DNA from: Hyphomicrobiales bacterium
GTDB taxonomy: Bacteria > Pseudomonadota > Alphaproteobacteria > Rhizobiales > Xanthobacteraceae
Length of the DNA: 64,000 bases
Reading direction: 5' to 3'
Assembly (NCBI GenBank): GCA_017305665.1
Contig: JAFKKH010000016.1
Coordinates: 1-64,000, forward strand
Within the stretch, counting starts at the first letter, position 1; each line of letters starts with the position of its first letter. The translations under genes were made by a program, and so were the position numbers. This document shows, one piece after another, positions 1-14,535 of this stretch. The notes under the pieces were generated by a model, which saw only the letters and a program-made list of their open reading frames with translations, ran no database searches and was not told the DNA's origin.

Positions 1-485
1 CCGGCGGAATGACCCATCAAGAACAGGCGATCACGATCGATGCCGAATTCGGTCGCATGCTGTCGGGTCCATGCGACGGCACTCGCAATGTCTTCGGTCG
101 CGCCGGGGTATCCGGCATCGCCGGCCAGCCGGTATCCGATGTTGATGCCGACGATGCCGTGACGCGCCAGGAAGCGAAGGACGTTGGCGTAGATCTCACT
201 GGTCCGGTTGCGATGTCCATCGAGAAAGGCGCCGCCGTGAACGAACAGCAGGGCCGCGCGGCGCTCATTCCGATTATCCGGAAGATACACGTCCAGTTGC
301 TGGCGGTTGTGCGGTCCGTAAGCGATGTCGGCTTTCACCTGCACGCCGTCGTTCGATCCCGTTCGATGCACCGCGCTGAATTTCTCGAGCATTAGCTTGA
401 CGTGCAGGGAGGGCGACCATTTCGGCCCGACCTCAGCCATCAACTGACGAAGATCGTCCGGAATATCGGGTCTGTTGGAATCCAT
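1..485 (-). CDS. alpha/beta hydrolase (partial, cut by left edge)
   Basis: This reading frame is open from an ATG at 485 down to base 1, so the C-terminal part lies outside the window. The visible 161 residues carry the oxyanion-hole motif HGGAF and end in MGHSA, the start of a GxSxG nucleophile elbow. Both are hallmarks of the hormone-sensitive-lipase/acetyl-esterase group of serine hydrolases, which cleave esters or amides of small molecules. No signal peptide is visible, so it is probably cytoplasmic. It lies 14 bases behind the aspartate-dehydrogenase-like gene on the same strand and is probably co-transcribed with it from the operator-bearing region at 1325-1488. The aspartate and histidine of the triad are not visible, and the substrate is unknown. 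Confidence 0.85.
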   Translation of the reverse strand, partial: MDSNRPDIPDDLRQLMAEVGPKWSPSLHVKLMLEKFSAVHRTGSNDGVQVKADIAYGPHNRQQLDVYLPDNRNERRAALLFVHGGAFLDGHRNRTSEIYANVLRFLARHGIVGINIGYRLAGDAGYPGATEDIASAVAWTRQHATEFGIDRDRLFLMGHSA

Positions 486-499
486 GGATGCCGCCGATG

Positions 500-1306
500 C
501 TATACGATGAGACGACCGATGCGATGCTCGATCAGGCGAACAAGGCTGAGGGCGGTCAACTCGGATGATTTCGGATTGGTTGCGAGCGGTTTGTTTTCCA
601 GGGTGATTTCCATCGTGCCGAAGGCTCCGCCTGCGACGATCCGATGGCTGTTCAGCTTCGACCCTGGATCGGCGATCATGTCGACGCGCGTTTTGTCCAA
701 TCCTACGCCTGCGAGCGAGGTCACGACGGTGGCATTGGCGTTTTGAGGATAAGCTGCGGCGGCTTGTCGCGCCGTCCCGGAAAAGAAGACTTTTCGTTCG
801 GCGAGGTTATCGAGATCGACAAGTTGTTCTGCCGGCGTATTCCGCCAGGCCCGAGGCGGTTTGATGATCTGATGGACGACATCGTCGAGGCCCAGAACCG
901 CCGCGCTGGCGAGGGCATCGATTCCGCCGATCGCGCCGGACGGAACCTGAATTTGACTCCCGTTGCTGTCCGCGAGGTCGATGAGCCAGGCGAGCAGGTC
1001 GTCGTCACAGAATGCGCTGGTCGAGGCGACGATCATAGTTGGTGCCACGCTCAAGGCGGCCGGCGCCCACTGCGCGATCGCGGCGCGGCCCGCGGCTTCG
1101 ATCACCAGGTCGGGCTTGAGATCGGCCAGATCGGAAGGCGCGCTCAGAAAACGAACGCCGGACGGCAGGCCGGCGCGCGCTTCCGGCGTATCGATCGTCG
1201 CGATACCGACGATCTCCGCGGGAGTTTTGCGCTCCCGCAGCAGCGCGCCAACCCGCGTGTTGATCGCACCCCATCCGATAAAAGCCAACCTGAGACGTCG
1301 CTGCAT
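500..1306 (-). CDS. nadX: aspartate dehydrogenase-like protein (DUF108 family)
   Basis: The protein has an N-terminal Rossmann segment (LRLAFIGWGAIN) and a C-terminal DUF108-type domain with the N-S-H-R segment where the family's catalytic histidine lies. Characterised members are NAD(P)-dependent L-aspartate dehydrogenases that interconvert aspartate with iminoaspartate or oxaloacetate plus ammonia, either for NAD synthesis or in catabolism. No nadA or nadC is nearby. The gene is divergent from an ABC importer and shares its operator region, so a catabolic role on aspartate or a related amino acid is more likely. A start at 1324 is possible; I chose 1306 because an AGGCAGGA stretch precedes it and homologues start close to the Rossmann strand. 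The family is fairly sure, the true substrate is not. Confidence 0.8.
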   Translation of the reverse strand: MQRRLRLAFIGWGAINTRVGALLRERKTPAEIVGIATIDTPEARAGLPSGVRFLSAPSDLADLKPDLVIEAAGRAAIAQWAPAALSVAPTMIVASTSAFCDDDLLAWLIDLADSNGSQIQVPSGAIGGIDALASAAVLGLDDVVHQIIKPPRAWRNTPAEQLVDLDNLAERKVFFSGTARQAAAAYPQNANATVVTSLAGVGLDKTRVDMIADPGSKLNSHRIVAGGAFGTMEITLENKPLATNPKSSELTALSLVRLIEHRIGRLIV

Positions 1307-1354
1307 CGATCCTGCCTGTTCCATTGTCAGGATGACATAGCGCGTTTTGATGGT

Positions 1355-1368
1355 ACAGACTAGTTAGT
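1355..1368. promoter_or_regulatory. probable TetR operator, copy 1
   Basis: The sequence ACAGACTAGTTAGT differs at two positions from ACTGACCAGTTAGT, the form at 5133-5146 read on the minus strand, and at one position from the copy at 13409-13422. The shared palindrome is ACTRACY-RGTYAGT. It lies between the divergent aspartate-dehydrogenase-like and ABC ATPase genes, six bases before a TTGACT hexamer (1374-1379) that could be a -35 box for the ATPase gene. The regulator at 4270-5001 is the obvious candidate ligand. Recurrence is seen directly; the protein partner is inferred. Confidence 0.7.
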
Positions 1369-1488
1369 TAGTATTGACTTTCCGCGACGGCTCGTCGACA
1401 CTTTCGCCATCTATTCTCGAAAAGCCGGAGGCGAGACGACGAGTCGTGAATGAATCTCCTGGACAGGTTTGTTCGTTGACGGGAGATC

Positions 1489-2358
1489 ATGGAAGTCGGC
1501 TCGATCCGAACTCAGCCCCTTTTCGCTTCACACAACCGTGGAAAACCAGTCGTGAGCATGCCTGCTGCAGCGATCAAACCTGAGACCTCTCCCTATCTGG
1601 AGATTGAAAACCTCAGCAAGGTGTATGCCAGCAACGATGGGCCGGTAAGGGCGCTCGATCGGGTATCGCTGCAGCAGAAGCGCGGGGAATTCGTTTCGAT
1701 CGTTGGACCGAGCGGCTGTGGAAAGAGCACGCTGCTCATGATCGCGGCTGGTCTGGCGTCATCGTCCGAAGGACAGGTTCTGGTCGAAAACAAGCTCGTT
1801 CGAGCGGCGCGGACCGATCTCGGAATTGTTTTCCAGAATCATGTGCTGCTCGATTGGCGGACTGCGCTCGAGAACGTGATGTTGCAGGCGGTCGCGCGGA
1901 AAATGGATCTGCGTGTCGCCGAGCAGCGCGCCCGTGAACTTCTCGCCGCGGTCGGCCTGCAGGGATTTGAGGACAAATATCCGAGGTCGCTGTCCGGCGG
2001 CATGAAGCAGCGTGTCTCGATTTGCCGGGCGTTGATCCATGATCCACCGCATCTGTTGATGGATGAGCCTTTCGGTGCGCTGGATTCGCTCACCCGGGAT
2101 CAACTCGTCTTGGACTTGCAGAGGATTTGCAGCGAGCGAAGCACGGCCGTGCTGTTCATTACGCACAGCATCGCGGAGGCGGTCTTTCTGTCGGATCGTG
2201 TGGTCGTTATGACCCCGCGCCCGGGCAAGATCGATCGTGTCATTGACATCGATCTGCCTCGTCCCCGGACGCTGGCCATGCGGGAGTCGCCGGAGTTTGC
2301 TCACTACAGCCGCGAGATACTCGACGTGTTCCTCGCTCGCGGTATCCTGAAGGAATAG
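1489..2358 (+). CDS. ABC transporter ATP-binding protein, NitT/TauT type
   Basis: This is the ATPase of an importer of the nitrate/sulfonate/taurine (SsuB/TauB) group. Walker A (GPSGCGKS), the signature LSGGMKQR and Walker B with the following D-loop (LLMDEPFGALD) are all intact. It should work with the permease that starts 14 bases downstream and probably with the Tat-exported binding protein at 13495, since no other NitT-type partner is in view. The 1489 ATG has a GGGAG only three bases upstream. The ATG at 1558 begins nearer the conserved domain (MPAAAIKPE) but lacks a clear ribosome site, so the first 23 residues are doubtful. Family certain; substrate presumably the compound degraded by the neighbouring operon. 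Confidence 0.93.
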   Translation: MEVGSIRTQPLFASHNRGKPVVSMPAAAIKPETSPYLEIENLSKVYASNDGPVRALDRVSLQQKRGEFVSIVGPSGCGKSTLLMIAAGLASSSEGQVLVENKLVRAARTDLGIVFQNHVLLDWRTALENVMLQAVARKMDLRVAEQRARELLAAVGLQGFEDKYPRSLSGGMKQRVSICRALIHDPPHLLMDEPFGALDSLTRDQLVLDLQRICSERSTAVLFITHSIAEAVFLSDRVVVMTPRPGKIDRVIDIDLPRPRTLAMRESPEFAHYSREILDVFLARGILKE

Positions 2359-2372
2359 GTCGGCGCGCAGAT

Positions 2373-3236
2373 ATGGTGGATATGGTGAGTGAAGACAACG
2401 GATTGTTGTCGATTGAGCAGGTTGAGCGGCGCGTCCAGGAGCAGACCCGCGCCAAGCGGACGCGTGATCGCCGCGCCGAGCTGATTTATCCGTTCCTCGC
2501 CGGCATCGGTCTTCTGATCGTCTGGGAACTCGGGACGAGGGTTCTTAATATTCCGATCTATCTCTTTCCACCGCCAAGCGCCGTGATCGTGTCGGCAGTG
2601 AAAAACTGGGAGTTGTTGCTGCGCGAAAGCTGGATCACGTCGGTCGAGATTCTGGCGGGCTACGCAGTCAGTATCGCCGTCGGAATTCCGCTGGCATTCG
2701 CGATCTTTCGCTGGCCTGTGTTTTCCAAGTCCATCTATCCGCTGCTGATTTCCTCGCAAGCAATGCCGAAAGTAGCTGTCGCGCCGCTTTTCGTTGTCTG
2801 GTTTGGATTTGGCCTGTTTCCGAAAGTGCTGATCGCGTTCCTGATCGCGTTCTTTCCGATCGTCATCAACACGGTGATGGGTCTGGCATCGATCGAACGG
2901 GAAAAGATCTATCTGGCGCAATCCATGGGGCTGTCGTCGTTCGAAACGTTCAGGTTGATCCGGTTGCCGAACGCGCTTCCCTCGATTTTCGCGGGCCTCA
3001 AGATTTCGATCACGCTCGCGGTCGTCGGCGCCGTCGTCGGTGAATTCGTGGGCGGTGACGGTGGTCTCGGCTATCAGCTCATGGTTGCGAACGGAAGCAT
3101 GGATACGCCGCTGCTGTTTGCGGGCATCGCGGCACTGACCGTGCTCGGCGTGTTGTTCTACTGGATCGTGGAAGTGGTCGAGCGCCTGAGCATGCCGCAT
3201 CTGGAGAGATCGCCGGATATAGCCGGGTCTGTTTAA
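2373..3236 (+). CDS. ABC transporter permease, NitT/TauT type
   Basis: The 287-residue protein has about six hydrophobic segments starting near residue 33 (LIYPFLAGIGLLIVWEL). The cytoplasmic coupling loop of BPD_transp_1/SsuC permeases, which docks on the ATPase, is visible near residues 175-200 (AQSMGLSSFETFRLIRLPNA). It sits 14 bases behind the ATPase gene, so the two form one unit. A second ATG at 2382 is possible. The cupin gene follows 145 bases downstream on the same strand. The substrate cannot be read from the sequence. Confidence 0.92.
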   Translation: MVDMVSEDNGLLSIEQVERRVQEQTRAKRTRDRRAELIYPFLAGIGLLIVWELGTRVLNIPIYLFPPPSAVIVSAVKNWELLLRESWITSVEILAGYAVSIAVGIPLAFAIFRWPVFSKSIYPLLISSQAMPKVAVAPLFVVWFGFGLFPKVLIAFLIAFFPIVINTVMGLASIEREKIYLAQSMGLSSFETFRLIRLPNALPSIFAGLKISITLAVVGAVVGEFVGGDGGLGYQLMVANGSMDTPLLFAGIAALTVLGVLFYWIVEVVERLSMPHLERSPDIAGSV

Positions 3237-3329
3237 TCCCGGCAAGGCGCGCATGGAGGCAGTGGATGCCGCCAGGCTCGCCGGAAATGGAAGCCCGTCT
3301 CAGGCTCGGCGGAGCCCCTCGGCTTTCAC

Positions 3330-3359
3330 TGTGTGAGCAAGAAGTGTGTGAGCAAGAAC
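3330..3359. repeat. 15-bp tandem repeat ahead of cupin gene
   Basis: Two adjacent copies of TGTGTGAGCAAGAAS (3330-3344 and 3345-3359) differ only in the last base. They end 22 bases before the cupin start, in the likely 5' leader. No function is evident. It may be a local duplication or a short regulatory element. Confidence 0.6.
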
Positions 3360-3381
3360 AAGATCCAACAGGAGAACGACG

Positions 3382-3915
3382 ATGAGCGTTGCAAGACATC
3401 CGCGGCCGAAAGAACTCGAAGGCGCGAGTCTCGAAGCTATCCTTGACAAATATGTCGCCCGGTTCAGCAACCGCAAGGCGGATTGGGCGGCGTTCGAGGA
3501 CGCCAAGATTGAGGGTTACAAGCGCGCCCAGCATCGCTTCATCGGTGCGGGAGGATCGGGCAAGCACGGTGATGCGGCCGTCATTCCGGCCGGCAATTTC
3601 ACGCTGTCGATCATGTATGTCGAACCGGGGCAGGGTAACGCCGCGCACACCCACGAGGTCGAGGAAGTTTTCTTCGTGCTGAAAGGGTTTCTGGATGTCT
3701 TCGTGGAAGACGAGACCGGCAAGCGGATCACGACCAGGCTCGGACCGTGGGAGTGCATCTGCACGCCGGCCGGGGTCATCCATGGTTATGAGAATGCCAG
3801 CCTCGAGCCTGTCTATTTTCAGGTGATGATCGGCCGTGGTAAGCCCGAAACCATGGGCTATGCCGACGAGTCGCTCTTCAAGCGGCGCGATGAGCATCTC
3901 AAGCCGGTGAGCTGA
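3382..3915 (+). CDS. cupin-domain protein
   Basis: The 177-residue protein has one cupin domain at about residues 65-155. The metal-binding histidines of cupin motif 1 appear in AAHTHEVEEVFFVLKG, and motif 2 in PWECICTPAGVIHGYEN. Single-domain cupins include small dioxygenases, isomerases and binding proteins, and the subfamily cannot be told from the sequence. It follows the ABC permease on the same strand and ends at a strong hairpin, so it closes the first operon of the island. A role as a ring-opening or tautomerising enzyme of the pathway is possible but speculative. An ACAGGAGAACGACG stretch before the ATG gives a good ribosome site. Confidence 0.8.
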   Translation: MSVARHPRPKELEGASLEAILDKYVARFSNRKADWAAFEDAKIEGYKRAQHRFIGAGGSGKHGDAAVIPAGNFTLSIMYVEPGQGNAAHTHEVEEVFFVLKGFLDVFVEDETGKRITTRLGPWECICTPAGVIHGYENASLEPVYFQVMIGRGKPETMGYADESLFKRRDEHLKPVS

Positions 3916-3954
3916 TCCAGAATTCCGGTCGGACGTTTGTCGTTCAAGAACCTC

Positions 3955-4269: not shown

Positions 4270-5001
4270 ATGAACAACGCAATACCCTCCGCTGGACGGG
4301 CGAAATCGAAAAAGACCGCGACCTCCCGTCATCTGGCAAAGGCTCCCCCGAAACAGGCATCGCGTCGGGCCCGGTCGACAAGCCCTGTCGAGACCCGGCA
4401 GCGGATTCTGGATGTCGCAACAAAGGAGTTTTCCGCCAAGGGATTTGATGGCGCGCGCGTCGATGACATCATGCGGATTGCGAAGGTCAGCAAGAATCTC
4501 ATCTACCACTATTTTGGCAGCAAGGAGCGGTTGTTCATCGCAGTCCTTGAAGCGGCCTATGAAGGTATGCATGCCTATCAGACAACGTGGCCGATCGACG
4601 TCAAGTCGCCCATGGACGGGGTGCGCAAGCTCGTTCGATCCACATTCAGATACTGGCGCGACTCTCCCGAGTTCATCGGGCTGCTCAATTCGGAGAACTT
4701 TCATAAGGGAAAGCATCTCCGCAAGACGAAGCTGACGAAGGCCGGATATTCGGGCCTGCTCGAGAACATCGGAAATCTGTTGAAGGAGGGCGAGCGATCA
4801 GGCGATTTCCGCGCCAATGTCGATCCGGTCGAGCTCTATATCTCGATCTCGGCTCTCGCTTATCATTTCCTCTCCAACCAGTACACGCTGGCCTATCTGC
4901 TCGATCGCAAATTGTCGACCGAAGACGACATGAATGCGCGCATCGCACATATCGAGGAACTCATCCTCGGATATCTCCGATTTGGAGCTCGGAAATCCTG
5001 A
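4270..5001 (+). CDS. TetR/AcrR-family transcriptional regulator
   Basis: A basic, poorly conserved N-terminal tail (residues 1-38) precedes a typical TetR DNA-binding domain (about 39-90): VETRQRILDVATKEFSAKG, then a recognition helix region ending SKNLIYHYFGSKERLF. The remaining 150 residues are an all-helical ligand-binding domain without recognisable motifs. The gene lies inside the catabolic island between its transporter operon and its main enzyme operon. Three copies of a TetR-like palindrome occur at the promoters of the surrounding units, so it probably represses them until a pathway compound binds. No copy was found at its own promoter, which argues against simple autoregulation. Confidence 0.92.
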   Translation: MNNAIPSAGRAKSKKTATSRHLAKAPPKQASRRARSTSPVETRQRILDVATKEFSAKGFDGARVDDIMRIAKVSKNLIYHYFGSKERLFIAVLEAAYEGMHAYQTTWPIDVKSPMDGVRKLVRSTFRYWRDSPEFIGLLNSENFHKGKHLRKTKLTKAGYSGLLENIGNLLKEGERSGDFRANVDPVELYISISALAYHFLSNQYTLAYLLDRKLSTEDDMNARIAHIEELILGYLRFGARKS

Positions 5002-5132
5002 CGACGCAGGGTCGGCACGGCAGCCGCCGATGAGTTGCTGAAGGCGAGTGCGCTTCCCCGTGCGGAATCCAGCACTTCAGTCAGGAGTTGCGGTTCTGGA
5101 ACACCGGTATGCATGTCGGCAGAACGCGCTTG

Positions 5133-5146
5133 ACTAACTGGTCAGT
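5133..5146. promoter_or_regulatory. probable TetR operator, copy 2
   Basis: ACTAACTGGTCAGT here is the reverse complement of ACTGACCAGTTAGT and matches the sites at 1355 and 13409. It overlaps a TTGACT hexamer (5130-5135) that could serve as the -35 box of the seven-gene operon starting at 5222. A repressor bound here would block RNA polymerase directly. The region 5002-5132 shows nothing else recognisable. Confidence 0.75.
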
Positions 5147-5221
5147 ATAAAGAATTCTTCGACGCGAAATTGGCGGCTGCGCGGTTTTTCCGCGAACGAT
5201 CGCCTTCCGCGGGAGTAGCTC

Positions 5222-5911
5222 TTGTCCGATCAGTCATCCGCTTTGCTCCGAACGCTCGCCGAGAAGGCGGATCCGCGACATGCCGCGCTGCTCGTCATTG
5301 ACGTTCAGAACGATTTTGTCGCAACCGGCGGCTTCTTCGATCAGGTCGGCGGCGACGTCCGTGTTATTCAGCAGCGTTGCGTGCCGAATTTGCTGCGCCT
5401 GATCGACGCGGCGCGGCGAGCTGGCGTGAAGGTCATCTTCGTGAAGGCCATCTACGATCCCGAAGTGCAGTCCGATGCCATGCGGGAGCGCAACTCGCGG
5501 CTTGGCATGGAACTGCCGCGCTGTCTTTCGGGGTCCTGGGGCGCTGAGTTCTACCAGGTCAAGCCGCTGCCGGAAGAGTCCGTCATCATCAAGCATCGCT
5601 ACAGCGCGATGGTCGGCACGCCACTTCTCGATTTGCTGAAGCGGCAAGGCATTCGCAGTCTGCTTCTCGCCGGCGTCGCAACCGATACCTGCGTGGAGTC
5701 GGCGGGGCGAGATGCCTATTTCCGCGACCACTACGTGACGATCGTCGAGGATTGCTGCGGCGCGGCCAGTGAGGAGGACCATCGCGGTGCGCTGAAGCGA
5801 TTCAACCGCGACTATGGTCCGGTCGTGAATTCACGAGACGTCATGGCAACCTGGAATGGACTTGAGCAAACGGCCGGCTCCACCGCGCCGGTTGCGGCTG
5901 TGCACCCATGA
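5222..5911 (+). CDS. isochorismatase-like cysteine hydrolase
   Basis: This alpha/beta protein of the isochorismatase superfamily keeps the likely Asp-Lys-Cys triad: Asp27 in LLVIDVQNDF, Lys124 in IIKHRYSAM and Cys157 in VATDTCVES. Members with this triad (nicotinamidase, N-carbamoylsarcosine amidase, maleamate amidohydrolase, biuret hydrolase) cleave C-N bonds and release ammonia or carbamate. The start codon is TTG, supported by GGGAG six bases upstream. It is the first gene of the operon and overlaps the PyrD-like gene by four bases. In this context an amide- or carbamoyl-cleaving step of a nitrogen-containing substrate is the natural inference. Confidence 0.88.
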   Translation: MSDQSSALLRTLAEKADPRHAALLVIDVQNDFVATGGFFDQVGGDVRVIQQRCVPNLLRLIDAARRAGVKVIFVKAIYDPEVQSDAMRERNSRLGMELPRCLSGSWGAEFYQVKPLPEESVIIKHRYSAMVGTPLLDLLKRQGIRSLLLAGVATDTCVESAGRDAYFRDHYVTIVEDCCGAASEEDHRGALKRFNRDYGPVVNSRDVMATWNGLEQTAGSTAPVAAVHP

Positions 5912-6945
5912 GTCTGTACAGAAAGCTGATAGCGCCGGGACTATTCAGGATGTCGGCCGACCGCAGCCATGCGGCGGCCCATGCCGCGCTTCGCTTGCCG
6001 GCGCCGTGGCGGCTGTTGTCGATGGCCGAGGGATTGAATGTTGACGACGCGAGGCTGAAGACGCGTTTCGCCGGGATTGATCTGCCCAACCCTGTCGGGC
6101 TCGCTGCCGGCTTCGACAAGAATGCCGAATTGCTCGAGGGGCTGTCCTGTCTCGGATTTGGCTTCATTTGCGTCGGCTCGATCATGCCGGAGGCGCGATA
6201 CGGCAATCCGTTTCCCCGTCTCGTCCGTTATCCTTCGCGGCAATCGATCGCGGATTCCATGGGCGTGCCGAGCAAGGGGCGGCCGTTCGCAGTTGATCAG
6301 CTCAAAAGGCGTGCGACACGACGTGTCCCCGTCTTTGCCAACGTCGGCGGCTTTTCCTCGGAGCAGATCGCGGACGGTATCAACGCGGTTCAGCCTTACG
6401 TCGATCTCGTTGAGATCAGCCTGATGTGCCCGAATGTGCTTGCGCCGGGCGAGGTCTTCGATGAAATCGCCATGTTGCGGGGTGTTCTCGATCGGATCGA
6501 GGGGCGGGCCTTGTCGGCAATCGTGCGCGTGCCGAACGATACGACGCAGATACCCGATCGGTTCGCCGAACTCATCGAGGTTTGCGTTTCCGCCGGCGTT
6601 GCCGGACTGAAGGTTGGTGGCGGTCGGCGCGTTCCCGAGCCGGGGCTTGGCACGGGCGTGGGAACATTGCATGGGCGCGACATCTTCGACGCGGCCCTTG
6701 CCAACGTCGAGCGCGCGGCCGGCTTTGCGCGCGGCCGCATTCCGATCAAGGGAAATGGCGGCGTCAGCAGCGCCGCGGATGTGCTGGCGATGCGACGGGC
6801 GGGGGCGACTTGCGTCGACCTCTATTCCGCCTTCGTCTATCAGGGATGGACCGTCGCGCGGGATATCAACAGGGAGCTGGCTCCGTTGTGGCAAACGTCA
6901 GGCAGGTCGTCCGATGTAGCCGCTGCGGCGCGCTTGGCATCCTAG
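5908..6945 (+). CDS. dihydroorotate dehydrogenase-like flavoprotein
   Basis: The 345-residue FMN barrel resembles class 2 PyrD in length and N-terminal extension: NPVGLAAGFDKNAE is the flavin-binding start and KGNGGVSSAADV the phosphate-binding end. The active-site loop reads ISLMCPN with Cys174. Class 2 PyrD normally has serine there, while class 1 PyrD and dihydropyrimidine dehydrogenase have cysteine. Its place in a catabolic operon and this mixed signature argue that it is not the housekeeping pyrimidine enzyme. It may oxidise or reduce a ring C-C bond of the pathway substrate. It is translationally coupled to the preceding gene by an ATGA overlap. Confidence 0.85.
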   Translation: MSLYRKLIAPGLFRMSADRSHAAAHAALRLPAPWRLLSMAEGLNVDDARLKTRFAGIDLPNPVGLAAGFDKNAELLEGLSCLGFGFICVGSIMPEARYGNPFPRLVRYPSRQSIADSMGVPSKGRPFAVDQLKRRATRRVPVFANVGGFSSEQIADGINAVQPYVDLVEISLMCPNVLAPGEVFDEIAMLRGVLDRIEGRALSAIVRVPNDTTQIPDRFAELIEVCVSAGVAGLKVGGGRRVPEPGLGTGVGTLHGRDIFDAALANVERAAGFARGRIPIKGNGGVSSAADVLAMRRAGATCVDLYSAFVYQGWTVARDINRELAPLWQTSGRSSDVAAAARLAS

Positions 6946-6990
6946 CGGCTGGTCGAAAGCGGGCTGAGGCCGGCGGCATGGGAAAAACGG

Positions 6991-7938
6991 ATGATCGTTG
7001 CGCTTGAAGAACATTACTTCGATGCCGACTGGAACAACCATTTCGATCCGGTCCATCACACGGCAAAGCCCGCCAATCCGCTAATCAAGCGCATGGAGGA
7101 CCTTGGCGCCGTGCGCATCAAGGAGATGGACGAGGCGGGAATCGACCTTCAAGTGATCTCGCACGGTCCGCCCGGCGCGCAGGGCCTGCGCGGCGATGCC
7201 GCCGTCGCATGGACGGCTGCGGCCAACGATCGCCTGTACGCGGCGATCAAGCTTCACCCGACGCGATTTGCCGGTTTTGCCTCGCTGCCGACCGACGATC
7301 CGGACGCGGCCGCTAACGAACTGCAGCGCGCGGTCGAGCAACTCGGATTCAAGGGCGGCATCCTGCATAGCCTGACACAGGGCCCGTTCCTCGACGACAA
7401 GCGCTACTGGCCGATCTTTGCGCGCGCAGCCGCGCTGGATGTGCCGCTCTATATCCATCCGGCTGATCCGCTTCCGGCGGTCGTCAAGGCCTACTACGGC
7501 GACTACGCCAAGACCCATCCGATGTTCATACGTGCCGCTTGGGGATTTACCTTCGAGGCGGGCACACAGGCGATGCGGCTCGTGCTCAGCGGCGTATTCG
7601 AGGCCTATCCCGGTCTCAAGTTGATCCTCGGCCATCTTGGAGAAACGATTCCCTATGCTCTGGCGCGGATCGACGAGGCGCTGTCCCGCGATACGCCGAT
7701 GAAAAACTTCCGCGAGGTGTTCACGTCTCATTTCTATGTCACGACCAGCGGCTTCTTCTCGGATCCTGCGTTGCAATGCTGCATCCAGGAGCTGGGACTC
7801 GATCGCATCATGTTTTCCGTCGACTGGCCGTTCGCGTCCAACGTCAAGGGTGTCGAGTGGCTCAAGAAGACGCCTCTGAGCGACGCCGATCGCGAGAAAC
7901 TGGCCTCGGGAAATGCGAAGCGGCTTCTGAAATTATGA
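6991..7938 (+). CDS. amidohydrolase-family protein, resorcylate decarboxylase-like
   Basis: This 315-residue TIM-barrel protein belongs to amidohydrolase_2 (PF04909). It starts with ALEEH (Glu6/Glu7, His8), then has His156 (LYIHPADP), His215 (ILGHLGE) and Asp278 (FSVDWPF). That set matches the metal ligands and acid of gamma-resorcylate, 2,3-dihydroxybenzoate and 5-carboxyvanillate decarboxylases. The family removes CO2 from aromatic acids without a redox cofactor; some relatives hydrolyse amides or lactones. A decarboxylating step on a hydroxylated aromatic or heteroaromatic acid is the most economical reading here, after ring hydroxylation by the molybdenum enzyme of the same operon. It starts 45 bases after the PyrD-like gene. 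Confidence 0.85.
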   Translation: MIVALEEHYFDADWNNHFDPVHHTAKPANPLIKRMEDLGAVRIKEMDEAGIDLQVISHGPPGAQGLRGDAAVAWTAAANDRLYAAIKLHPTRFAGFASLPTDDPDAAANELQRAVEQLGFKGGILHSLTQGPFLDDKRYWPIFARAAALDVPLYIHPADPLPAVVKAYYGDYAKTHPMFIRAAWGFTFEAGTQAMRLVLSGVFEAYPGLKLILGHLGETIPYALARIDEALSRDTPMKNFREVFTSHFYVTTSGFFSDPALQCCIQELGLDRIMFSVDWPFASNVKGVEWLKKTPLSDADREKLASGNAKRLLKL

Positions 7939-8007
7939 GGGAATGCTGTTTTGTAGAGTTTCAATGCGGAAAAGGCCTGAGTGGCTGCATCCGATCGAAG
8001 GTTGTCG

Positions 8008-9690
8008 ATGCTGGTTGAAAAGAACGCGCTGATTCCGGTGAGCGACGGCCATGAGTTGCGCGCGAACGTCTATCGCCCCGAGCAGGAGGGCCGTTATCCG
8101 GTGCTGATGTCGCTCGGCATCTACGGCAAGGACGTTCATTTCGCCGACGGCTACAAGCTGCAGTGGGACAAGCTGAAGACCCTCAACCCCGCGATTTGCG
8201 ACGCCGGTTCGAGCGGTCGCCATCTTCGCTGGGAGAAGATCGATCCGGAGCGCTGGGTGCCGGACGGTTACGTGGTCATCTCGGTCGATGGCCGCGGTAG
8301 CGGCCAGTCGCCGGGTTACCTCGATCCATTCTCGCCGCGCGAAACCCAGGACTACTACGACGCCATCGAATGGGCCGCGGTTCAGCCGTGGTCGACGGGA
8401 AGGGTTGGATTGATCGGGATTTCGTATCTCTCGATCAAGCAGTGGCAGGTCGCGGCGCTGCAGCCGCCGCATCTTGCTGCGATATGCCCGTGGGAAGGCG
8501 GATGCGACCTCTATCGCGACTGGAGCCATCACGGCGGAATCTTCAGCAACTCGTTTCCGACCGCGTGGTGGCCGCGCCAGGTTCTTCCAAATCAACACGG
8601 CAACGGCGCCACGCATCATCGGGATCGCGAGACCGGACAACCGACGACGGGACCGACGCTCAGCGAGGACGTGCTCCGGAGCAATCGCGCCGACCACGCC
8701 GACGATCTGTTGCGCCATCCGCTCGACGACGCCTGGTACCGGCAGCGCTCGCCGGATCTCGGCCGAATTTCCGTACCGCTGTTTTCGGCGGGTAACTGGG
8801 GTGGGCCAGGATTGCATCTTCGGGGCAACATCGAGGGGTTTGTGCGGTCCGGCTCGCAGGCGAAGTGGCTCGACATGCATGTTGGAACGCACTTCGAGAG
8901 CTTTTATCTGCCGAACTATATCGAGCGGCAGAAGCGGTTTTTCGCTCACTTTCTCAAGGGCGAAAGCAACGGGTGGGATCGTGAACCGACCATTCGGCTC
9001 GAAATCCGAAGCCCCGATAGTGTGAGCGCGCGCCATGAAGCCGAATGGCCGTTGGCGCGGACGGAATGGCGGCGCTACTATCTCGACGCGGCCAACCATA
9101 CGATGAGCCGCGAGGCGCCATCCGTTGAGGCGACAAGCACGTTCCTTGCGTTGGGCGACGGCGTCAGTTTCCTGACCGCGCCTTTCGCGGCGGTGACCGA
9201 ATTCACCGGCCCCGTGACGGCGCGGCTGTGGATCTCCTCGTCCACCACGGACGCGGACATCTTCGCCACGCTGCGCCTTTTCGCGCCCGACGGCCGCGAA
9301 GTGGTTTTCGCGGGCGCGAGCGATACCGAGCCGGTCGCGCGCGGATGGTTGCGCGCGTCACACCGTAAGCTGGATACAACGATGTCGACGCCGTTTCGGC
9401 CGTATCACAGTCATGACGAGATCCAGAAATTGCAGCCGGGGCAGGCCTATCCACTCGATGTCGAAATCTGGCCGACCAGCATCGTGTGTCCTCCGGGCTA
9501 TCGTCTGGCCTTGACGATCCAGGGCAGGGACTATGAGGCGCCCGGCGTATCGGGACGTATTCTGCACGATCATGAACTGGACCGGCCGCGACATCAGTTC
9601 GGGGGCCGCACCACGCTCCTGACCGGTCCCGACCACGACTCCTATCTGCTGTTGCCGCACATCCCCGCGCAGTCCGGAAAATCCCGATGA
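8008..9690 (+). CDS. CocE/NonD-family serine hydrolase
   Basis: The protein has the X-Pro dipeptidyl-peptidase S15 layout. An alpha/beta hydrolase domain carries the nucleophile elbow GISY, the histidine candidate lies in MHVGTHFESF, and a jelly-roll C-terminal domain ends the chain. Relatives include cocaine esterase, glutaryl-7-ACA acylase and other ester or amide hydrolases. I prefer the ATG at 8008, which has GAAGG six bases upstream and opens with the typical EKNALIPVSDGHELRANVYRP segment. A GTG at 7981 would add nine residues. It overlaps the next gene by four bases. It could release the ring compound from an ester or amide, but no substrate can be named. Confidence 0.87.
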   Translation: MLVEKNALIPVSDGHELRANVYRPEQEGRYPVLMSLGIYGKDVHFADGYKLQWDKLKTLNPAICDAGSSGRHLRWEKIDPERWVPDGYVVISVDGRGSGQSPGYLDPFSPRETQDYYDAIEWAAVQPWSTGRVGLIGISYLSIKQWQVAALQPPHLAAICPWEGGCDLYRDWSHHGGIFSNSFPTAWWPRQVLPNQHGNGATHHRDRETGQPTTGPTLSEDVLRSNRADHADDLLRHPLDDAWYRQRSPDLGRISVPLFSAGNWGGPGLHLRGNIEGFVRSGSQAKWLDMHVGTHFESFYLPNYIERQKRFFAHFLKGESNGWDREPTIRLEIRSPDSVSARHEAEWPLARTEWRRYYLDAANHTMSREAPSVEATSTFLALGDGVSFLTAPFAAVTEFTGPVTARLWISSSTTDADIFATLRLFAPDGREVVFAGASDTEPVARGWLRASHRKLDTTMSTPFRPYHSHDEIQKLQPGQAYPLDVEIWPTSIVCPPGYRLALTIQGRDYEAPGVSGRILHDHELDRPRHQFGGRTTLLTGPDHDSYLLLPHIPAQSGKSR

Positions 9691-10556
9691 AGATGCCGCA
9701 GTTTGATTACGCCTGTCCGTCCTCGCTTGAAGAGGCAATCCAACTCCTTTCCGACAACGAGGGCGCCAAGGTGCTGTCCGGCGGCCAGAGCCTGTTGCCG
9801 CTGCTTGCCTTCCGCATGGCGCAACCGACGCTGCTGGTCGATATCCAGAAACTCGCCGGCATGGATCGAATCGAAATTTCCGCGGATGGTCTGCGCGTCG
9901 GTGCGCGAGTGCGCTGGTGCCAGATCGAGGACGACAAGCGGCTCGCCACCGCGCATCCGCTGTTTCAATTCATGATCAACCACGTCGCGCACTATCAGAT
10001 TCGCAATCGCGGAACGGTGGGCGGCAGCCTTGCCCATGCGGACCCGTCCGCCGAGATGCCGGGAGTCGCACGGGTCTGCGATTGCGACATCGTTGCGGTC
10101 GGCAATGCAGGCGAGCGCGTGATCAAGGCCGCGGATTTCTTTGTCGCGGCCCTGGAAACGTCCCTCCAAGAGGATGAGATCATCACCGAGGTTCGGTTTC
10201 CGCCATGGCCATCGGGCCGGCGTTGGGCCTTTCATGAATTCGCGCGGCGCAGGGGAGATTTTGCGATCGCCGGCGTCGCCGTGTTCTTCGACATCGGCAG
10301 CGACGGGGTGATTGCGGATGCCCATGTCGGCGTCATCGGCGCGGGAGATACGCCGATCCGGCTCGATGCCGTCGAGCAATTGCTGAACGGTCAGCGGCTG
10401 GACGAGGAATTGATCGGCCGCGCCCGGCATCTCGCGTCCGAAACCGTCGATCCGCAATCGGATATCCATGCCGCGGGCGACTATCGCAAGTCATTGGTGG
10501 GAACCCTCACGGCGCGCGGCTTGCGCGATGCCGCATCCTCGGGAGCAGTCAAGTGA
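9687..10556 (+). CDS. molybdenum hydroxylase, FAD-binding medium subunit (CoxM/XdhB-like)
   Basis: This is the FAD subunit of a three-part xanthine-dehydrogenase-family enzyme. The two flavin-binding motifs are present: LSGGQSLLPLLAFR near residues 31-45 and NRGTVGGSLAHADPSAE near residues 108-124. It passes electrons from the iron-sulfur subunit to the acceptor. The gene overlaps both neighbours by four bases, giving the order medium-small-large as in CO-dehydrogenase-like and many heterocycle-hydroxylating operons. Confidence 0.93.
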   Translation: MKMPQFDYACPSSLEEAIQLLSDNEGAKVLSGGQSLLPLLAFRMAQPTLLVDIQKLAGMDRIEISADGLRVGARVRWCQIEDDKRLATAHPLFQFMINHVAHYQIRNRGTVGGSLAHADPSAEMPGVARVCDCDIVAVGNAGERVIKAADFFVAALETSLQEDEIITEVRFPPWPSGRRWAFHEFARRRGDFAIAGVAVFFDIGSDGVIADAHVGVIGAGDTPIRLDAVEQLLNGQRLDEELIGRARHLASETVDPQSDIHAAGDYRKSLVGTLTARGLRDAASSGAVK

Positions 10557-11041
10557 AGATGAGGATCGAGTTTGAACTCAACGGCAAACCTGTCTCGGCC
10601 GAGGTGGAGCCGCGGCTAACGCTGGGCGACTGCATCCGTCATGAGCTGTTGCAGACGGGGACCCATATCGGCTGCGAGCACGGCGTGTGTGGCGCGTGTA
10701 CGGTGATCGTCGAAGGCGACGCGGTGCGTTCCTGCCTGACACTGGCGGTTCAGGCGGCGGGCAAGCGGGTGCAGACGGTCGAAGGTCTGGCGAACGGCGA
10801 CAATCTGGCGCCGCTGCAGCAGTCGTTTCAAAAGCATCACGGTCTGCAATGCGGGTTCTGCACGCCGGGCTTCCTGATGACGGCGCATGCCTTGCTGACC
10901 CATGAGCCGGCGGCCGACGAGGAGCGCATCCGAGAGGTCCTGTCGGGCAACGTCTGCCGCTGCACCGGATATTTGTCGATCGTGAAAGCCGTCATGGACG
11001 CGCGTCCGGCCTATCAGGCGAACAAGGCGGTGCAATCGTGA
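10553..11041 (+). CDS. molybdenum hydroxylase, 2Fe-2S small subunit (CoxS-like)
   Basis: The 162-residue protein carries the plant-type 2Fe-2S motif (CEHGVCGACTV, with an earlier Cys-free N-terminal strand and a later Cys) and the second, all-helical 2Fe-2S motif (CGFCTPG and CRCTGY). It links the molybdenum centre of the large subunit to the FAD subunit. The GTG at 10553 overlaps the upstream stop; an ATG at 10559 is an equally possible start. Confidence 0.93.
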   Translation: MKMRIEFELNGKPVSAEVEPRLTLGDCIRHELLQTGTHIGCEHGVCGACTVIVEGDAVRSCLTLAVQAAGKRVQTVEGLANGDNLAPLQQSFQKHHGLQCGFCTPGFLMTAHALLTHEPAADEERIREVLSGNVCRCTGYLSIVKAVMDARPAYQANKAVQS

Positions 11042-13329
11042 GCGCGCGGATTCCTCTGGTCGGCAAGCCGATTGAACGCATCGAAGACCGCAAGCTGCTG
11101 CTTGGCCGCGGCAGCTTCGCTGACGATATCCATCGTGACGGCATGCTTCACGCGGCGATCCTGCGCAGTTCGGTCGGGCATGGTCTGATACGTCATATCG
11201 ATGTGAGCGCGGCGCGCGCACTGGAGGGTGTGCATGCGGTGTTCTCCGCGGAGGAGATCGGCCGGCCTGTCCCGCGAATTCCGGTCCGCCTCTTTCCCAA
11301 CGACGGGATGGATCCGTTCCGTCAGCCGGTGATTGCCGATGGCAAGGTGCGGTTCGTCGGCGAGCCGATCGCCATCGTCATCGCGGACACTCCCGCGATT
11401 GCCGAAGACGCTCTCGAACTGATCGAGGTCGACATCGAAGTGTTTCCGGCGGTCACGAGCATTGCGGCTGCCGTCGCGGGACCGGCATTGCTGTTTGAGT
11501 CTCACGGGTCGAACCGGATATTTGGCTATGAGATTCGGCGTGATGAACTCGCCGATATCTTCGAGACCGCCGCGTATACGCGCCGCGAGCGGCTCTACGT
11601 GCATCGGCACACCGGGATCACCATGGAGACCCGGGGTGTCGTTGCGGAGTGGAATGCCGCCGACGGCTATATGCGATGCTGGGGGGCGGTGAAGGTGCCG
11701 TTCGCCAATCGCAAGATACTGGCCGGCATGCTGGACCTTCCCGAAGACAAGGTCGAGATGATCGAAGGCAATGCCGGCGGCAGCTTTGGCGTTCGCGGCG
11801 AATTCTTTCCCGAAGACTTTCTGATTCCGTTCGCCGCCCGCAAATTGGGCCGGCCGGTCAAATGGATCGAAGATCGCCGCGAGCATCTGCTGGCGATCAC
11901 GCATGCCCGCGACGTGGAGTGTGATATCGCGATCGCCTGCGATGGCGACGGCCACATTCTCGGCATTCGGGCTGACATGCGGATGAATATCGGCGCGTAT
12001 TTCCGCACGTCGACGACGATCGCTCCGCGTAATGTCGGACAATTCGTGCCCGGGCCATATCGCGTTCCGGCTTACAGCGCGGACGTTGCCGTGATCGCGT
12101 CGAACAAGTCCCCGTCCGGAACCTATCGCGGGCCGGGCCGGTTCGAGGCCGACTTTTTTCGGGAACGTATGCTGGATCTCGCGGCCGACGATCTCGGCAT
12201 CGATCGTGTCGAATTCCGCCGTCGCAATCTTCTGACAGAAGCCGAACTGCCGAAACCGTTCCCCGCGATCACCCCCAATCCTGTCGTGACCGAACTCGAC
12301 AGTGGGGCCTACGAGCACGTTCTCGATCTTTGCCTGGCGAAAGCGAACTGGGCGGACAAGCAGCACCTTCAGGGCAAGCTGGTGGACGGGCGTTATCATG
12401 GTCTGGCCGTCTGCTGTTTCGTCGAAGGTGGAGCGGCCGGGCCGCGCGAGAGTGCGCGCATGGTGCTGGAGGACGATGGGACGATCTCGCTCTATGTCGG
12501 CTCCTCAGCGGTCGGCCAGGGCGTGGAAACGATCCTGACGCAGATCGCGGCCGATGCGATGGAGCTTCCGCTTGACGCCATTCGCGTGTTCCATGGCTCG
12601 ACGACTTACGTGAAGGAAGGATGGGGCTCGTATCATTCGCGCTCCACCGTGATGGGCGGCAATGCCGTGCTGTTGGCCGCCGCCGAGATCAAGTCGCAGA
12701 TGCTCGCGGCCGGCGCCGGTCTGCTGCAATGTTCCGGACAGGAGGTGTCTTACGAGAACGGCCGCGTCATCGCGCAGCATGGCGGGTCGGTCGGCCTCAA
12801 GGAGCTGGCCGGCAAGGACATCGCGTTCGAAGCGACGTTTCATAACAGCAAGCACACGTACACATACGGCTCGCATGTCGCCCATGTCGCGGTCGATGCC
12901 GAGACGGGGCACATCGAGATCGTCGACTACGTCGCCATCGAAGACGCCGGCCGGATTATCAATCCGTTGACGCTGCACGGGCAGGCGGTCGGCTCGATCG
13001 TTCAGGGACTCGGTGGTGCTCTGCTCGAGCACTTCGTCTATGACGAGGATGGGCAGATGCTGTCGGGCTCGCTGGCGGATTATCTGGTGCCGCTCGCGAC
13101 CGATTTTCCCAACATTCGTACGTCGTCGATCGAACTTCGTCCGTCTCCGAATCACCCGCTCGGCGCGAAGGGCGCAGGCGAGGGCGGCACCATTCCGGTC
13201 GGAGGCCTATTGGCCAACGCCGTCGCCGCAGCCTTGCGCGATTTCCATGTTCAGCCGACCGAGTTGCCGTTGTCACCGGACCGCATCTGGCGTCTTGTCC
13301 AAGACGCACCAGCGCAGTCAGGCGCCTGA
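11038..13329 (+). CDS. molybdenum hydroxylase, molybdopterin-binding large subunit (CoxL-like)
   Basis: The 763-residue catalytic subunit begins with the GKPIERIEDRKLLLGRG segment usual for CoxL-type proteins. It carries the conserved active-site glutamate in GAKGAGEGG (Glu715). The CO-dehydrogenase signature AYRCSFR is replaced by GTYRGPGR, so it is not a true CO dehydrogenase. It should hydroxylate an aromatic N-heterocycle or oxidise an aldehyde using water as oxygen donor. It probably binds molybdopterin cytosine dinucleotide, as its family does. It starts with GTG in a four-base overlap and is the last gene of the operon; 165 bases then separate it from the binding-protein gene. Confidence 0.93.
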   Translation: MSARIPLVGKPIERIEDRKLLLGRGSFADDIHRDGMLHAAILRSSVGHGLIRHIDVSAARALEGVHAVFSAEEIGRPVPRIPVRLFPNDGMDPFRQPVIADGKVRFVGEPIAIVIADTPAIAEDALELIEVDIEVFPAVTSIAAAVAGPALLFESHGSNRIFGYEIRRDELADIFETAAYTRRERLYVHRHTGITMETRGVVAEWNAADGYMRCWGAVKVPFANRKILAGMLDLPEDKVEMIEGNAGGSFGVRGEFFPEDFLIPFAARKLGRPVKWIEDRREHLLAITHARDVECDIAIACDGDGHILGIRADMRMNIGAYFRTSTTIAPRNVGQFVPGPYRVPAYSADVAVIASNKSPSGTYRGPGRFEADFFRERMLDLAADDLGIDRVEFRRRNLLTEAELPKPFPAITPNPVVTELDSGAYEHVLDLCLAKANWADKQHLQGKLVDGRYHGLAVCCFVEGGAAGPRESARMVLEDDGTISLYVGSSAVGQGVETILTQIAADAMELPLDAIRVFHGSTTYVKEGWGSYHSRSTVMGGNAVLLAAAEIKSQMLAAGAGLLQCSGQEVSYENGRVIAQHGGSVGLKELAGKDIAFEATFHNSKHTYTYGSHVAHVAVDAETGHIEIVDYVAIEDAGRIINPLTLHGQAVGSIVQGLGGALLEHFVYDEDGQMLSGSLADYLVPLATDFPNIRTSSIELRPSPNHPLGAKGAGEGGTIPVGGLLANAVAAALRDFHVQPTELPLSPDRIWRLVQDAPAQSGA

Positions 13330-13408
13330 TCGTTCGTCCGGGAAATAGATACTGCTGGTGGGCGCGGCCTGATGCCGCAACTCTCGGCAGCAATTGGCGC
13401 CCAAAAAG

Positions 13409-13422
13409 ACAGACCAGTTAGT
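13409..13422. promoter_or_regulatory. probable TetR operator, copy 3
   Basis: ACAGACCAGTTAGT differs at one position from the operator at 5133 (read on the opposite strand). It lies ten bases ahead of a TTGACT hexamer in front of the binding-protein gene. Confidence 0.75.
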
Positions 13423-13431
13423 CAATCGCGA

Positions 13432-13459
13432 TTGACTTTGGAAATCGCCGGATAATAAT
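13432..13459 (+). promoter_or_regulatory. probable promoter of binding-protein gene
   Basis: TTGACT at 13432-13437 can act as a -35 box and AT-rich GATAATAAT at 13451-13459 as a -10 box, with 15-16 bases between the best hexamers. A good ribosome site (GGGAGGAGCAGGACA) follows before the ATG at 13495. Confidence 0.55.
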
Positions 13460-13494
13460 CGGCTATCAAAATAACCAATGGGAGGAGCAGGACA

Positions 13495-14535
13495 ATGTTC
13501 GAGGGGTCGACGACGCGGCGAAGCTTTCTCAAGACGAGTGCTCTCGCTTCGGCTGCGCTGGCCGTTCCGGCGATCGTACGAGCCCAATCGACCAAGCCGC
13601 TCCGGCCGATTACGCTGCAAAGCGACTGGATATGGGGCGGCCCGAATGCCGGCTTCATCGTCGCGAAGGAAAAGGGCTATTTCGCCGACGAAGGTTTCGA
13701 CGTCACTGTCAATCAGGGCAAGGGCTCCGGCAATACCGCGCAGATCATCGCCTCCAAGGCGGCGCAATTCGGTTTCGCGGACGGTTATGTCGTGGCGAAT
13801 ACCGTGTCGAAAGGTGCCAAGCTCAAGATGGTTGCCGGAATCTTCCGGCGGAATCCGGCCGCCGTGCTGGTTCTCGAGGAGTCCAACATCCGCGATCCGA
13901 AGGGCCTCGAAGGCAAGACCATCGGCATCGCGACGGGGTCGGCTCAATTCCAGCAATTCCCCGCATTCCTCAAGGGTTCAAAGCTGGATCCGGCCAAGGT
14001 GCGCGTCGTCAATGTGGACGGTGCGGGCGCCGGTCCCGCGCTGATCAACGGTCAGGTCGCTGCGATCGCCGGCTTCGCCCAAGGCTATATTCCGGGCATC
14101 GAAATCCGCGGCAAAAAGAAGGTTCGTCCATTCTGGTATTCCGACGCCGGGGTGACGTGCATGAGCAACGGCCTCATCGTCCACGAGGAGATGCTGTCGG
14201 AGCCGGATACCATCCGTGCGATGGTTCGCGCGAGCCTGAAAGGCTTCCTGTACGGACGCGCTCACCCCGACGAGTTGGCCCAGATCGTCAAGAAGTATCT
14301 CGCGTCCACGGACCCCGCGATCACGGTGCGCGAGGCGCAACTGTCGTGGACGACATGGGTGACGCCGACGACCGCCAACAAGCCGCTCGGCTGGATGTCG
14401 TCGAAGGATTGGTCGTCGACCGTCGAAGTGCTGAAAGCCTACGGCGGCGTGACCACGGCGCTCGACGCGGCGTCGCTCTTTACCAATGAGTTCGTGCCTG
14501 ATGGCAAGGAATTCATCCCGCCCCAGAATGGATAG
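13495..14535 (+). CDS. ABC transporter substrate-binding protein, NitT/TauT type, Tat-exported
   Basis: The N-terminus carries a twin-arginine signal (TTRRSFLKTSALASAAL, cleavage after IVRAQS), so the protein should reach the periplasm folded. The mature part resembles the NMT1/THI5/SsuA-like fold (PITLQSDWIWGGPNAGFIVA, then EKGYFADEGFDVTVNQGKGS). It should deliver the substrate to the importer at 1489-3236, which otherwise lacks a binding protein. It has its own promoter and operator copy, allowing higher expression than the membrane parts. Confidence 0.92.
   Translation: MFEGSTTRRSFLKTSALASAALAVPAIVRAQSTKPLRPITLQSDWIWGGPNAGFIVAKEKGYFADEGFDVTVNQGKGSGNTAQIIASKAAQFGFADGYVVANTVSKGAKLKMVAGIFRRNPAAVLVLEESNIRDPKGLEGKTIGIATGSAQFQQFPAFLKGSKLDPAKVRVVNVDGAGAGPALINGQVAAIAGFAQGYIPGIEIRGKKKVRPFWYSDAGVTCMSNGLIVHEEMLSEPDTIRAMVRASLKGFLYGRAHPDELAQIVKKYLASTDPAITVREAQLSWTTWVTPTTANKPLGWMSSKDWSSTVEVLKAYGGVTTALDAASLFTNEFVPDGKEFIPPQNG

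Follow-up and report, generated by a model that had tools for sequence, protein, structure and literature searches.

The left end of contig C4 from a Hyphomicrobiales bacterium (genome 5.03 Mb, 47 contigs) raises the question of why a gene resembling pyrD is found among genes that appear to serve catabolism. Class-2 dihydroorotate dehydrogenases are drug targets, and to our knowledge they are known for a single reaction, in pyrimidine synthesis. The window analyzed here comprises bases 1–64000 of the contig, and the block in question occupies bases 1–14535. The initial annotation had named fourteen genes in it: a three-gene importer of the NitT/TauT type, the three subunits of a molybdenum (Mo) hydroxylase (CoxMSL), a resorcylate-decarboxylase-like amidohydrolase, an isochorismatase-family hydrolase, the PyrD-like protein, a CocE hydrolase, a second alpha/beta hydrolase, a cupin, an aspartate-dehydrogenase-like protein (AspDH) and a TetR regulator. 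All fourteen are present where they had been placed, and their families are borne out by the positions of the open reading frames together with Pfam and NCBIfam scans. The explanation that we favor, with a probability of roughly one half, is that the block forms a self-contained system, controlled by TetR, for the catabolism of an N-heterocyclic carboxylate, ester or amide, in which the PyrD-like enzyme would act as a quinone-coupled ring dehydrogenase.

Active site and fold of the PyrD-like protein

The PyrD-like gene (5908–6945, + strand) encodes a predicted flavin mononucleotide (FMN)-dependent ring oxidoreductase. Its product belongs to the Pfam family DHO_dh, yet it reaches the cut-off of none of the NCBIfam PyrD models listed, with scores of 137.4 against 200 for the equivalog model TIGR01036 and 188.6 against 267 for the best model. 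Two further PyrD homologues are encoded in the genome, on contigs C9 and C44, and the C9 copy has the canonical motifs. An alignment was made with 79 canonical-type proteins, consisting of the C9 copy and the proteins of 78 other loci, one locus having been removed by a length filter; the C44 copy and the protein of a more distant locus, G413, were kept separate from this set. In a FastTree phylogeny of 88 proteins, seven PyrD-like members form a clade with a support of 1.0, to which the G413 protein is sister (0.999). At 20 of the 60 columns that are at least 95% conserved in the canonical-type set, the usual residue is absent from every clade member; at 14 of the 20, the clade is fixed on one other residue.

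The orotate site is among the regions that have changed. N116D, R117S, K207R and the loss of the NTT motif near position 239 are common to all seven clade members, and N171S is found in six, while K71, N145 and N176 are kept. The orotate-contact residues, which we take to be the equivalents of human N145, N212, N284 and T285, are retained in 79 of 79 canonical-type proteins, and the clade has D, S (N in one member), G and R instead; for the last motif, the exact residue pairing differs between two alignments, with NTT missing in both. The FMN-binding core (AAGFDK, N145, N176 and GG284–285) is present in 7/7 clade members. So is R107, and H21 is kept in 6/7; these are the equivalents of human R136 and H56, which are presumably residues of the quinone tunnel.

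In a structure model with a mean predicted local distance difference test score (pLDDT) of 90.3, residues 1–40 (pLDDT 87–94) form helices at 3–12, 17–28 and 31–40, and the closest solved folds are class-2 dihydroorotate dehydrogenases (3u2o, E 2.4e-27, template modeling score 0.83; E. coli 1f76, E 1.6e-24). By the model and the fold search, the class-2 N-terminal helical quinone domain is retained, and the enzyme may well use a quinone. Judged by its residues, the PyrD-like protein does not look like a dihydroorotate dehydrogenase, which agrees with the proposal that the block is built around a PyrD-like enzyme of another function. It is scarcely credible that the gene is a stray second dihydroorotate dehydrogenase in an unrelated operon: its homology to class-2 PyrD is clear, but it forms its own clade, has lost the orotate site and keeps the same neighbors across several lineages, and a canonical-type copy is already encoded on C9.

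The third homologue, on C44 (L147:9089–10183), has V, H and L at positions 116, 117 and 240 and is diverged at some orotate-site positions. It adjoins genes identified by eye as an importer permease, a binding protein and an ATPase.

Conservation of the block and its operator

A contig scan with the PyrD-like protein, in which the best 80 of at least 581 stretches were kept, yielded only one further member of the clade, from a Rhodospirillales metagenome-assembled genome (L003, 62% identity). Draws of genomes by order, family, class, phylum and two genera, which overlap in part and to which strict thresholds were applied, contained the gene in 1/397 (order; the bacterium's own genome only), 5/149 (family; its own, G457, G496, G470 and the more distant G413), 2/385 (class; its own and G827) and 1/398 (phylum; its own) genomes. 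Within the genus of G457, the gene was found in 3 of 16 genomes (G457, G496 and G1235), and within that of G470 in 1 of 11. In the family draw, the six other same-genus genomes listed lack it. The gene is therefore rare, and its patchy occurrence suggests that it moved horizontally or was lost repeatedly. In plasmid records, 149 PyrD-like matches were obtained, all below 60% identity and the 20 listed at or below 35%. No plasmid record reached 60% in searches with the cupin, CocE, CoxL, amidohydrolase, isochorismatase or binding protein, and the block is not present in the three plasmid neighborhoods inspected.

Where the PyrD-like gene occurs, its neighbors largely occur as well. Twelve block genes were counted, a match being at least 25% identity over half the length. 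The window has all 12 (against itself), as have G457, G496 and G1235, followed by G827 with 10 and L003 with 9. These six catabolic-type loci represent four lineages, as G457, G496 and G1235 share a genus and cannot count as three independent cases. The more distant loci reach 6/12 (G413) and 3/12 (G470, the importer only). Among 79 ordinary pyrD loci that served as controls, 62 had no block gene, 17 had one and none had more; the single matches were to the generic ABC ATPase in 16 cases and to CoxS in one. The block is thus conserved as a set, with 9–12 of 12 genes in six loci, and not as scattered single genes, the outcome that the initial annotation had named as speaking against its own proposal.

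Gene order, by contrast, varies. In L003 it runs cupin, amidohydrolase, CoxMSL, substrate-binding protein (SBP), isochorismatase, ATPase, permease and PyrD; in G827, aldehyde dehydrogenase, alpha/beta hydrolase, CoxG, Amidase and a Mo-binding subunit come first, followed by the series CocE, CoxMSL, second SBP, cupin, SBP, ATPase, permease, PyrD and TetR. That the content is kept while the order is shuffled argues for a joint function. The PyrD-like gene lies immediately 3' of the importer permease in L003, G827 and G470, three of the seven clade loci, whereas in the window and in the genus of G457 other block genes lie between the two. The initial annotation had placed the PyrD-like step late, and its position directly after the permease in these three loci instead suggests an early one.

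Some components vary between loci. G457, G496 and G1235 hold a second set of CoxMSL and decarboxylase genes, CocE and AspDH have no match in the L003 stretch, and AspDH is only 35–38% identical in the loci that have it. Each of the eight PyrD-like stretches, however, carries an isochorismatase- or Amidase-family gene, the latter in G827, and this speaks against the idea that the block degrades a non-nitrogenous aromatic compound or ester and that its nitrogen enzymes are incidental. In favor of that idea, similar amidohydrolase, hydrolase, cupin and CoxMSL genes are present in genomes of the family without a PyrD-like match, and two cupins adjoin genes that resemble Rieske oxygenases by eye, without a family search; we regard it as highly improbable nonetheless.

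Two of these loci contain further genes of note. In G470 (L096:10381–17187), a flavin adenine dinucleotide (FAD) monooxygenase, a short-chain dehydrogenase and an isochorismatase with a signal-like start accompany the PyrD-like gene and importer in place of CoxMSL and decarboxylase, and its cupin and CoxMSL genes sit elsewhere on the chromosome. In L003, a luciferase-family monooxygenase gene (276–1268) lies upstream of the cupin.

The block also appears to be held together by its regulation. Inspection of intergenic DNA by eye revealed a near-palindrome common to the window and its relatives. Exact matches to the 15-bp pattern GACTARYTRGTYWGT number three in the whole 5.03-Mb genome, each of them intergenic and before a block operon: in the divergent AspDH/importer promoter region (copy 1, 1358–1372, + strand), upstream of the run from isochorismatase through PyrD, amidohydrolase and CocE to the Cox genes (copy 2, 5132–5146, + strand) and upstream of the binding protein (copy 3, 13409–13423, − strand). 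A reversed control pattern has no match in the genome. When up to two mismatches are allowed, the window has five matches, all at the same three places, against 0.29 expected. Of 143 loci compared, the exact operator is confined to 11, each a piece of the window, G457, G496 or G1235. Copy 2 is identical at the equivalent place in G457, G496 and G1235, and copy 3 is likewise kept in G457 and G496. At the corresponding promoters of G457 there are three exact copies, and of two further matches with two mismatches each, one precedes the cupin and the other lies elsewhere; in G496, copies precede the cupin, SBP, isochorismatase and second SBP. In G827, which belongs to another family, 13 sites match with no more than three mismatches, where 1.7 would be expected. 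Nine of these sites fall at five places immediately 5' of the matches to aldehyde dehydrogenase, alpha/beta hydrolase, CocE, SBP and TetR (start codons being uncertain), and the other four lie elsewhere. Co-conservation in shuffled order, together with one operator at three promoters only, thus upholds the proposal of a single catabolic system. Scans for sigma-70 promoters and terminators gave signals at or below the level of shuffled sequence.

The TetR regulator encoded between copies 1 and 2 (4270–5001, + strand; TetR_N/TetR_C_29) is, from its position, the likely owner of the operator, which it would bind. As it is weakly RutR-like and occurs together with PyrD-like and RutB-like proteins, the substrate might be a pyrimidine, such as a uracil- or orotate-like carboxylate, and the system related to pyrimidine catabolism but oxidative. 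Compared with the RutR box, which we take to be TTGACCANNTGGTCAA, copy 2 shows differences at 2 of 14 positions. Yet copy 3 differs from the box at three positions and copy 1 at more than three, and seven other places in the window match the box as well as copy 3 does; a literature search for the box returned only papers unrelated by title. The scores against the RutR and RutB models are far below the curated cut-offs (61.5 bits against 368 and 102 against 378, respectively), the orotate-site residues are lost, and no RutA-type (luciferase-family) gene is among the fourteen. A pyrimidine substrate is accordingly quite unlikely.

Accompanying enzymes and the predicted pathway

The genes for the FAD subunit (CoxM-like, 9687–10556), the 2Fe-2S subunit (CoxS-like, 10553–11041) and the large Mo-cofactor subunit (CoxL, 11038–13329), all on the + strand, overlap within one operon, the arrangement of a three-subunit Mo hydroxylase of the xanthine oxidase type; the first two were assigned by NCBIfam and CoxL by Pfam and NCBIfam. 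The best solved relatives of CoxL are 6-hydroxypseudooxynicotine dehydrogenase (E 2e-139) and then quinoline 2-oxidoreductase (E 5e-120), and it is 35.7% identical to an annotated kdhC on a plasmid. A carbon monoxide dehydrogenase (CoxMSL form I) was considered and rejected: the loop reads TYRGPGR, whereas that of carbon monoxide dehydrogenase is, we assume, AYXCSFR, and the TIGR02416 score is 365 against a cut-off of 991. In a CoxL tree, from which the first CoxL of G457 was excluded by a coverage filter, the proteins of the window, G1235, G496 and G827 group with a support of 1.000 and that of L003 stands beside them at only 0.231. The second CoxL proteins, those of G457 and G496, cluster with CoxL of G461 and G500, genomes without a PyrD-like match.

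The amidohydrolase-2 protein (6991–7938, + strand) has γ-resorcylate decarboxylase (3s4t, E 4.5e-64) as its best solved relative by sequence, and the residues ExH, H and D, which we take to be the metal ligands as in that enzyme, are intact in 8/8 aligned homologues; decarboxylase activity is thus predicted. The isochorismatase-family C-N hydrolase (5222–5911, + strand) is nearest to RutB, with biuret hydrolase a few rows lower, and its D, K and C residues are present in 5/5 aligned homologues. CocE/NonD, a putative ester or amide hydrolase (7981–9690, + strand), scores 268.9 bits against a cut-off of 66.3 for TIGR00976.

The single-domain cupin (3382–3915, + strand; Pfam Cupin_2) is a core gene, 71–81% identical in the five other catabolic-type loci, and its HxH, E and H motif residues are conserved in 18/18 aligned rows (14 displayed). 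The 176-residue protein has, in the family draw, either a match at 76–86% identity or none at E 1e-30. Twelve of 25 cupin places were inspected (L129–L140); nine have a CoxL-type gene, and in seven the Cox set adjoins the cupin. As Cox genes thus lie near the cupin in most inspected places, it appears to belong to a wider cupin-CoxMSL association. No close solved relative of the cupin was found, cupin structures appearing only at E of about 1e-4; its top solved matches, ubiquitin-type chains with many weak repeats, were taken as spurious.

The importer consists of an ATPase (1489–2358) and a permease (2373–3236), both on the + strand and recognized by family resemblance, with 66–88% and 63–84% identity, respectively, in the five other catabolic-type loci and scores below every curated cut-off shown, and of an NMT1-type periplasmic binding protein (13495–14535, + strand; Pfam NMT1, E 2.1e-44), whose twin-arginine-type signal scores above the NCBIfam cut-off and slightly below that of Pfam. 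On the − strand, AspDH (500–1324; Pfam Asp_DH_C, E 3.4e-30; NF009828, 245 bits against 177) is an accessory oxidoreductase, and the second alpha/beta hydrolase (3–485; Pfam BD-FAE, E 3.6e-22; 161 residues in the window; homologue in G457) is truncated at the start of C4. The first 149 bases of C4 are the last 149 of contig C1, whose end (L100) supplies the rest of the hydrolase and then an aldehyde dehydrogenase on the same strand; because of this overlap and of the hydrolase gene running on across it, the two contigs are taken to be adjacent. The right border is formed by an opposite-strand gene (14829–17087) read by eye as a CPx-type P-type ATPase.

Beside the aldehyde dehydrogenase, the C1 end (L100:34–8025) carries a glutamine-synthetase-like ligase, two Rieske oxygenase genes, a ferredoxin-reductase-type flavoprotein and an IclR regulator, a set that we assume to be reminiscent of aniline-type γ-glutamylation routes. 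It has no operator copy.

These components would fit the following route. A nitrogen-containing ring as substrate is suggested by the nearest solved relatives of CoxL and of the isochorismatase, by the isochorismatase- or Amidase-family gene of every PyrD-like stretch and by the enzyme set around the G413 protein. The compound, probably N-heteroaromatic, would be taken up by the binding protein and importer, and CocE or the second hydrolase would remove an ester or amide group. The PyrD-like enzyme would then dehydrogenate a CH-CH bond next to a ring amide or imide and pass the electrons to the respiratory quinone; PyrD carries out the equivalent dehydrogenation on dihydroorotate, and here it would take place on another ring. 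The Mo hydroxylase would introduce a hydroxyl group adjacent to the ring nitrogen, the resorcylate-decarboxylase-like enzyme would remove an ortho-hydroxy carboxylate, and the ring might be opened by the cupin acting as a metal enzyme or by hydrolysis. Amide hydrolysis by the isochorismatase (or the Amidase-family enzyme in G827) would release ammonia, and AspDH and the aldehyde dehydrogenase would finish the chain. The order first put forward (uptake, cleavage, hydroxylation, decarboxylation, ring redox change and C-N cleavage) thus survives in part; apart from the flavin step, it is weakened by the absence of CocE, AspDH, the isochorismatase and the decarboxylase each from some locus. An isonicotinate/citrazinate pathway, citrazinate being deaza-orotate, was also considered and is not claimed, since the literature searches returned no supporting paper and such a pathway has no place for an ortho-hydroxy decarboxylase.

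Oxidation is favored for the flavin step because the quinone-tunnel features are retained, and a quinol could hardly drive ring reduction. Conversely, the PyrD-like enzyme could reduce a dihydroxylated N-ring, as its imide tautomer, after Mo hydroxylation and decarboxylation, in the manner of HxnT; CocE or the alpha/beta hydrolase would then hydrolyze the saturated imide and the isochorismatase the amide. With their second set of CoxMSL and decarboxylase genes, G457, G496 and G1235 would yield a doubly hydroxylated ring, and a parallel enzyme set is found in the G413 locus and in a fungal pathway, as far as the latter is described in the accessible part of PMC9304392. Against a reduction, the retained class-2 helices and presumed tunnel residues fit electron flow to quinone, no PyrK-like reductase partner was matched among the fourteen block genes in the Pfam and NCBIfam scans, and the PyrD-like gene directly follows the permease in three loci. 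A reductive route is somewhat unlikely, though the likeness of the G413 locus to the fungal route, with its reducing FMN enzyme, speaks for it.

Several further observations weigh against a conserved, oxidative N-ring system, quite apart from the possible reductive direction of the flavin step. The isochorismatase and amidohydrolase have no match in the 38-kb G827 stretch, so that steps there differ or lie elsewhere, and in the 34-kb G470 stretch, with PyrD-like gene and importer, neither a Mo hydroxylase nor a decarboxylase of this type is encoded. With a mean of 17.4 kb, the control loci are shorter than most catabolic stretches (32–47 kb), although L003, at 15.4 kb, and the window block, at 14.5 kb, have 9 and 12 genes, respectively, in a control-like length; without the length filter, control locus L054 weakly matches all three Cox genes. 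The operator pattern was derived from the window's own sites, and its exact matches are for that reason no independent test, a role that falls to its absence elsewhere and its recurrence in G827. The amidohydrolase and second CoxMSL of G457 have no nearby copy within two mismatches, and in L003 operator matches are not above chance. More family genomes have the cupin than have the PyrD-like gene (24/149 against 5/149), the first CoxL of G457 (L092:16521–18802) lies in two overlapping frames through a frameshift or assembly error, and the relatedness of Mo hydroxylases predicts their substrates poorly. Finally, a cysteine at the catalytic-base position 174 was discarded as a mark of novelty, as it is found in 7/7 clade members and also in 19/79 canonical-type proteins.

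Comparison with known systems

The picolinate (pic) cluster of Alcaligenes and Bordetella comprises a picolinate dehydrogenase step, the amidohydrolase-family decarboxylase PicC and a later amide hydrolysis, according to the available part of PMC10142695, and all three have counterparts in the block. No match to a pic-type 2,5-dihydroxypyridine dioxygenase, deformylase or 6-hydroxypicolinate monooxygenase/PicB-like protein was found, however, by the Pfam and NCBIfam scans among the fourteen genes, the rest of the genome being outside this search, and that part of the source describes no PyrD-like enzyme for pic.

The hxn nicotinate route of Aspergillus nidulans, as set out in the accessible part of PMC9304392, employs a Mo hydroxylase, an FMN reductase, a PuuE-related cyclic imidase and an amide hydrolase. 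The likeness is one of pathway logic only (Mo hydroxylation, FMN ring redox chemistry, imide and amide hydrolysis), and no homology is claimed; the fungal FMN enzyme is an old yellow enzyme working in the reducing direction, and no amidohydrolase-2 decarboxylase is described there. Closer in enzyme set to the fungal route is the G413 locus (L098/L099, 3114–26453 of the joined stretch), in which a distant PyrD-like protein (37–39% identity) is accompanied by UbiD, a PuuE-like hydrolase, an Amidase, a LigB dioxygenase, a PF11723 Rieske oxygenase and two CoxMSL sets. This locus is possibly a related N-ring pathway with other parts.

The Mo hydroxylases Kdh and Qor are the closest solved relatives of the block's CoxL, but no other nicotine or quinoline gene was recognized in the block. 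With the Rut pathway, the block shares the weak RutB and RutR likenesses, and it differs in their low scores and in having no RutA-type match. No matching cluster was found in searches of the open-licence literature of PubMed Central, nor, by title or abstract, a paper that joins a PyrD-like enzyme with one, and the accessible part of PMC7356986 mentions neither dihydroorotate nor isochorismatase; this is consistent with the claim that no characterized pathway has this set.

Catabolism of N-rings that relies on Mo hydroxylases is already known, and the PyrD-like step is what is new. With class-2 PyrD, the PyrD-like protein shares the fold, FMN motif and N-terminal helices, but its clade lacks the orotate-contact residues, scores below the NCBIfam cut-offs and lies in a catabolic block. 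We tentatively suggest that the clade might represent a novel family of enzymes: a respiratory flavin dehydrogenase, coupled to quinone and with its origin in pyrimidine biosynthesis, which would aromatize (or reduce) an N-ring other than orotate as the entry step of an undescribed pathway and would have moved between bacterial families as a unit with importer and operator. Automated annotation may label such genes pyrD. The three-copy operator and single adjacent regulator make the inducer, and hence the substrate class, directly findable. If the proposal is true, the clade would be a genetic marker for a new route of N-ring degradation, and the PyrD scaffold would serve catabolism with its fold and quinone features kept and its orotate site rebuilt.

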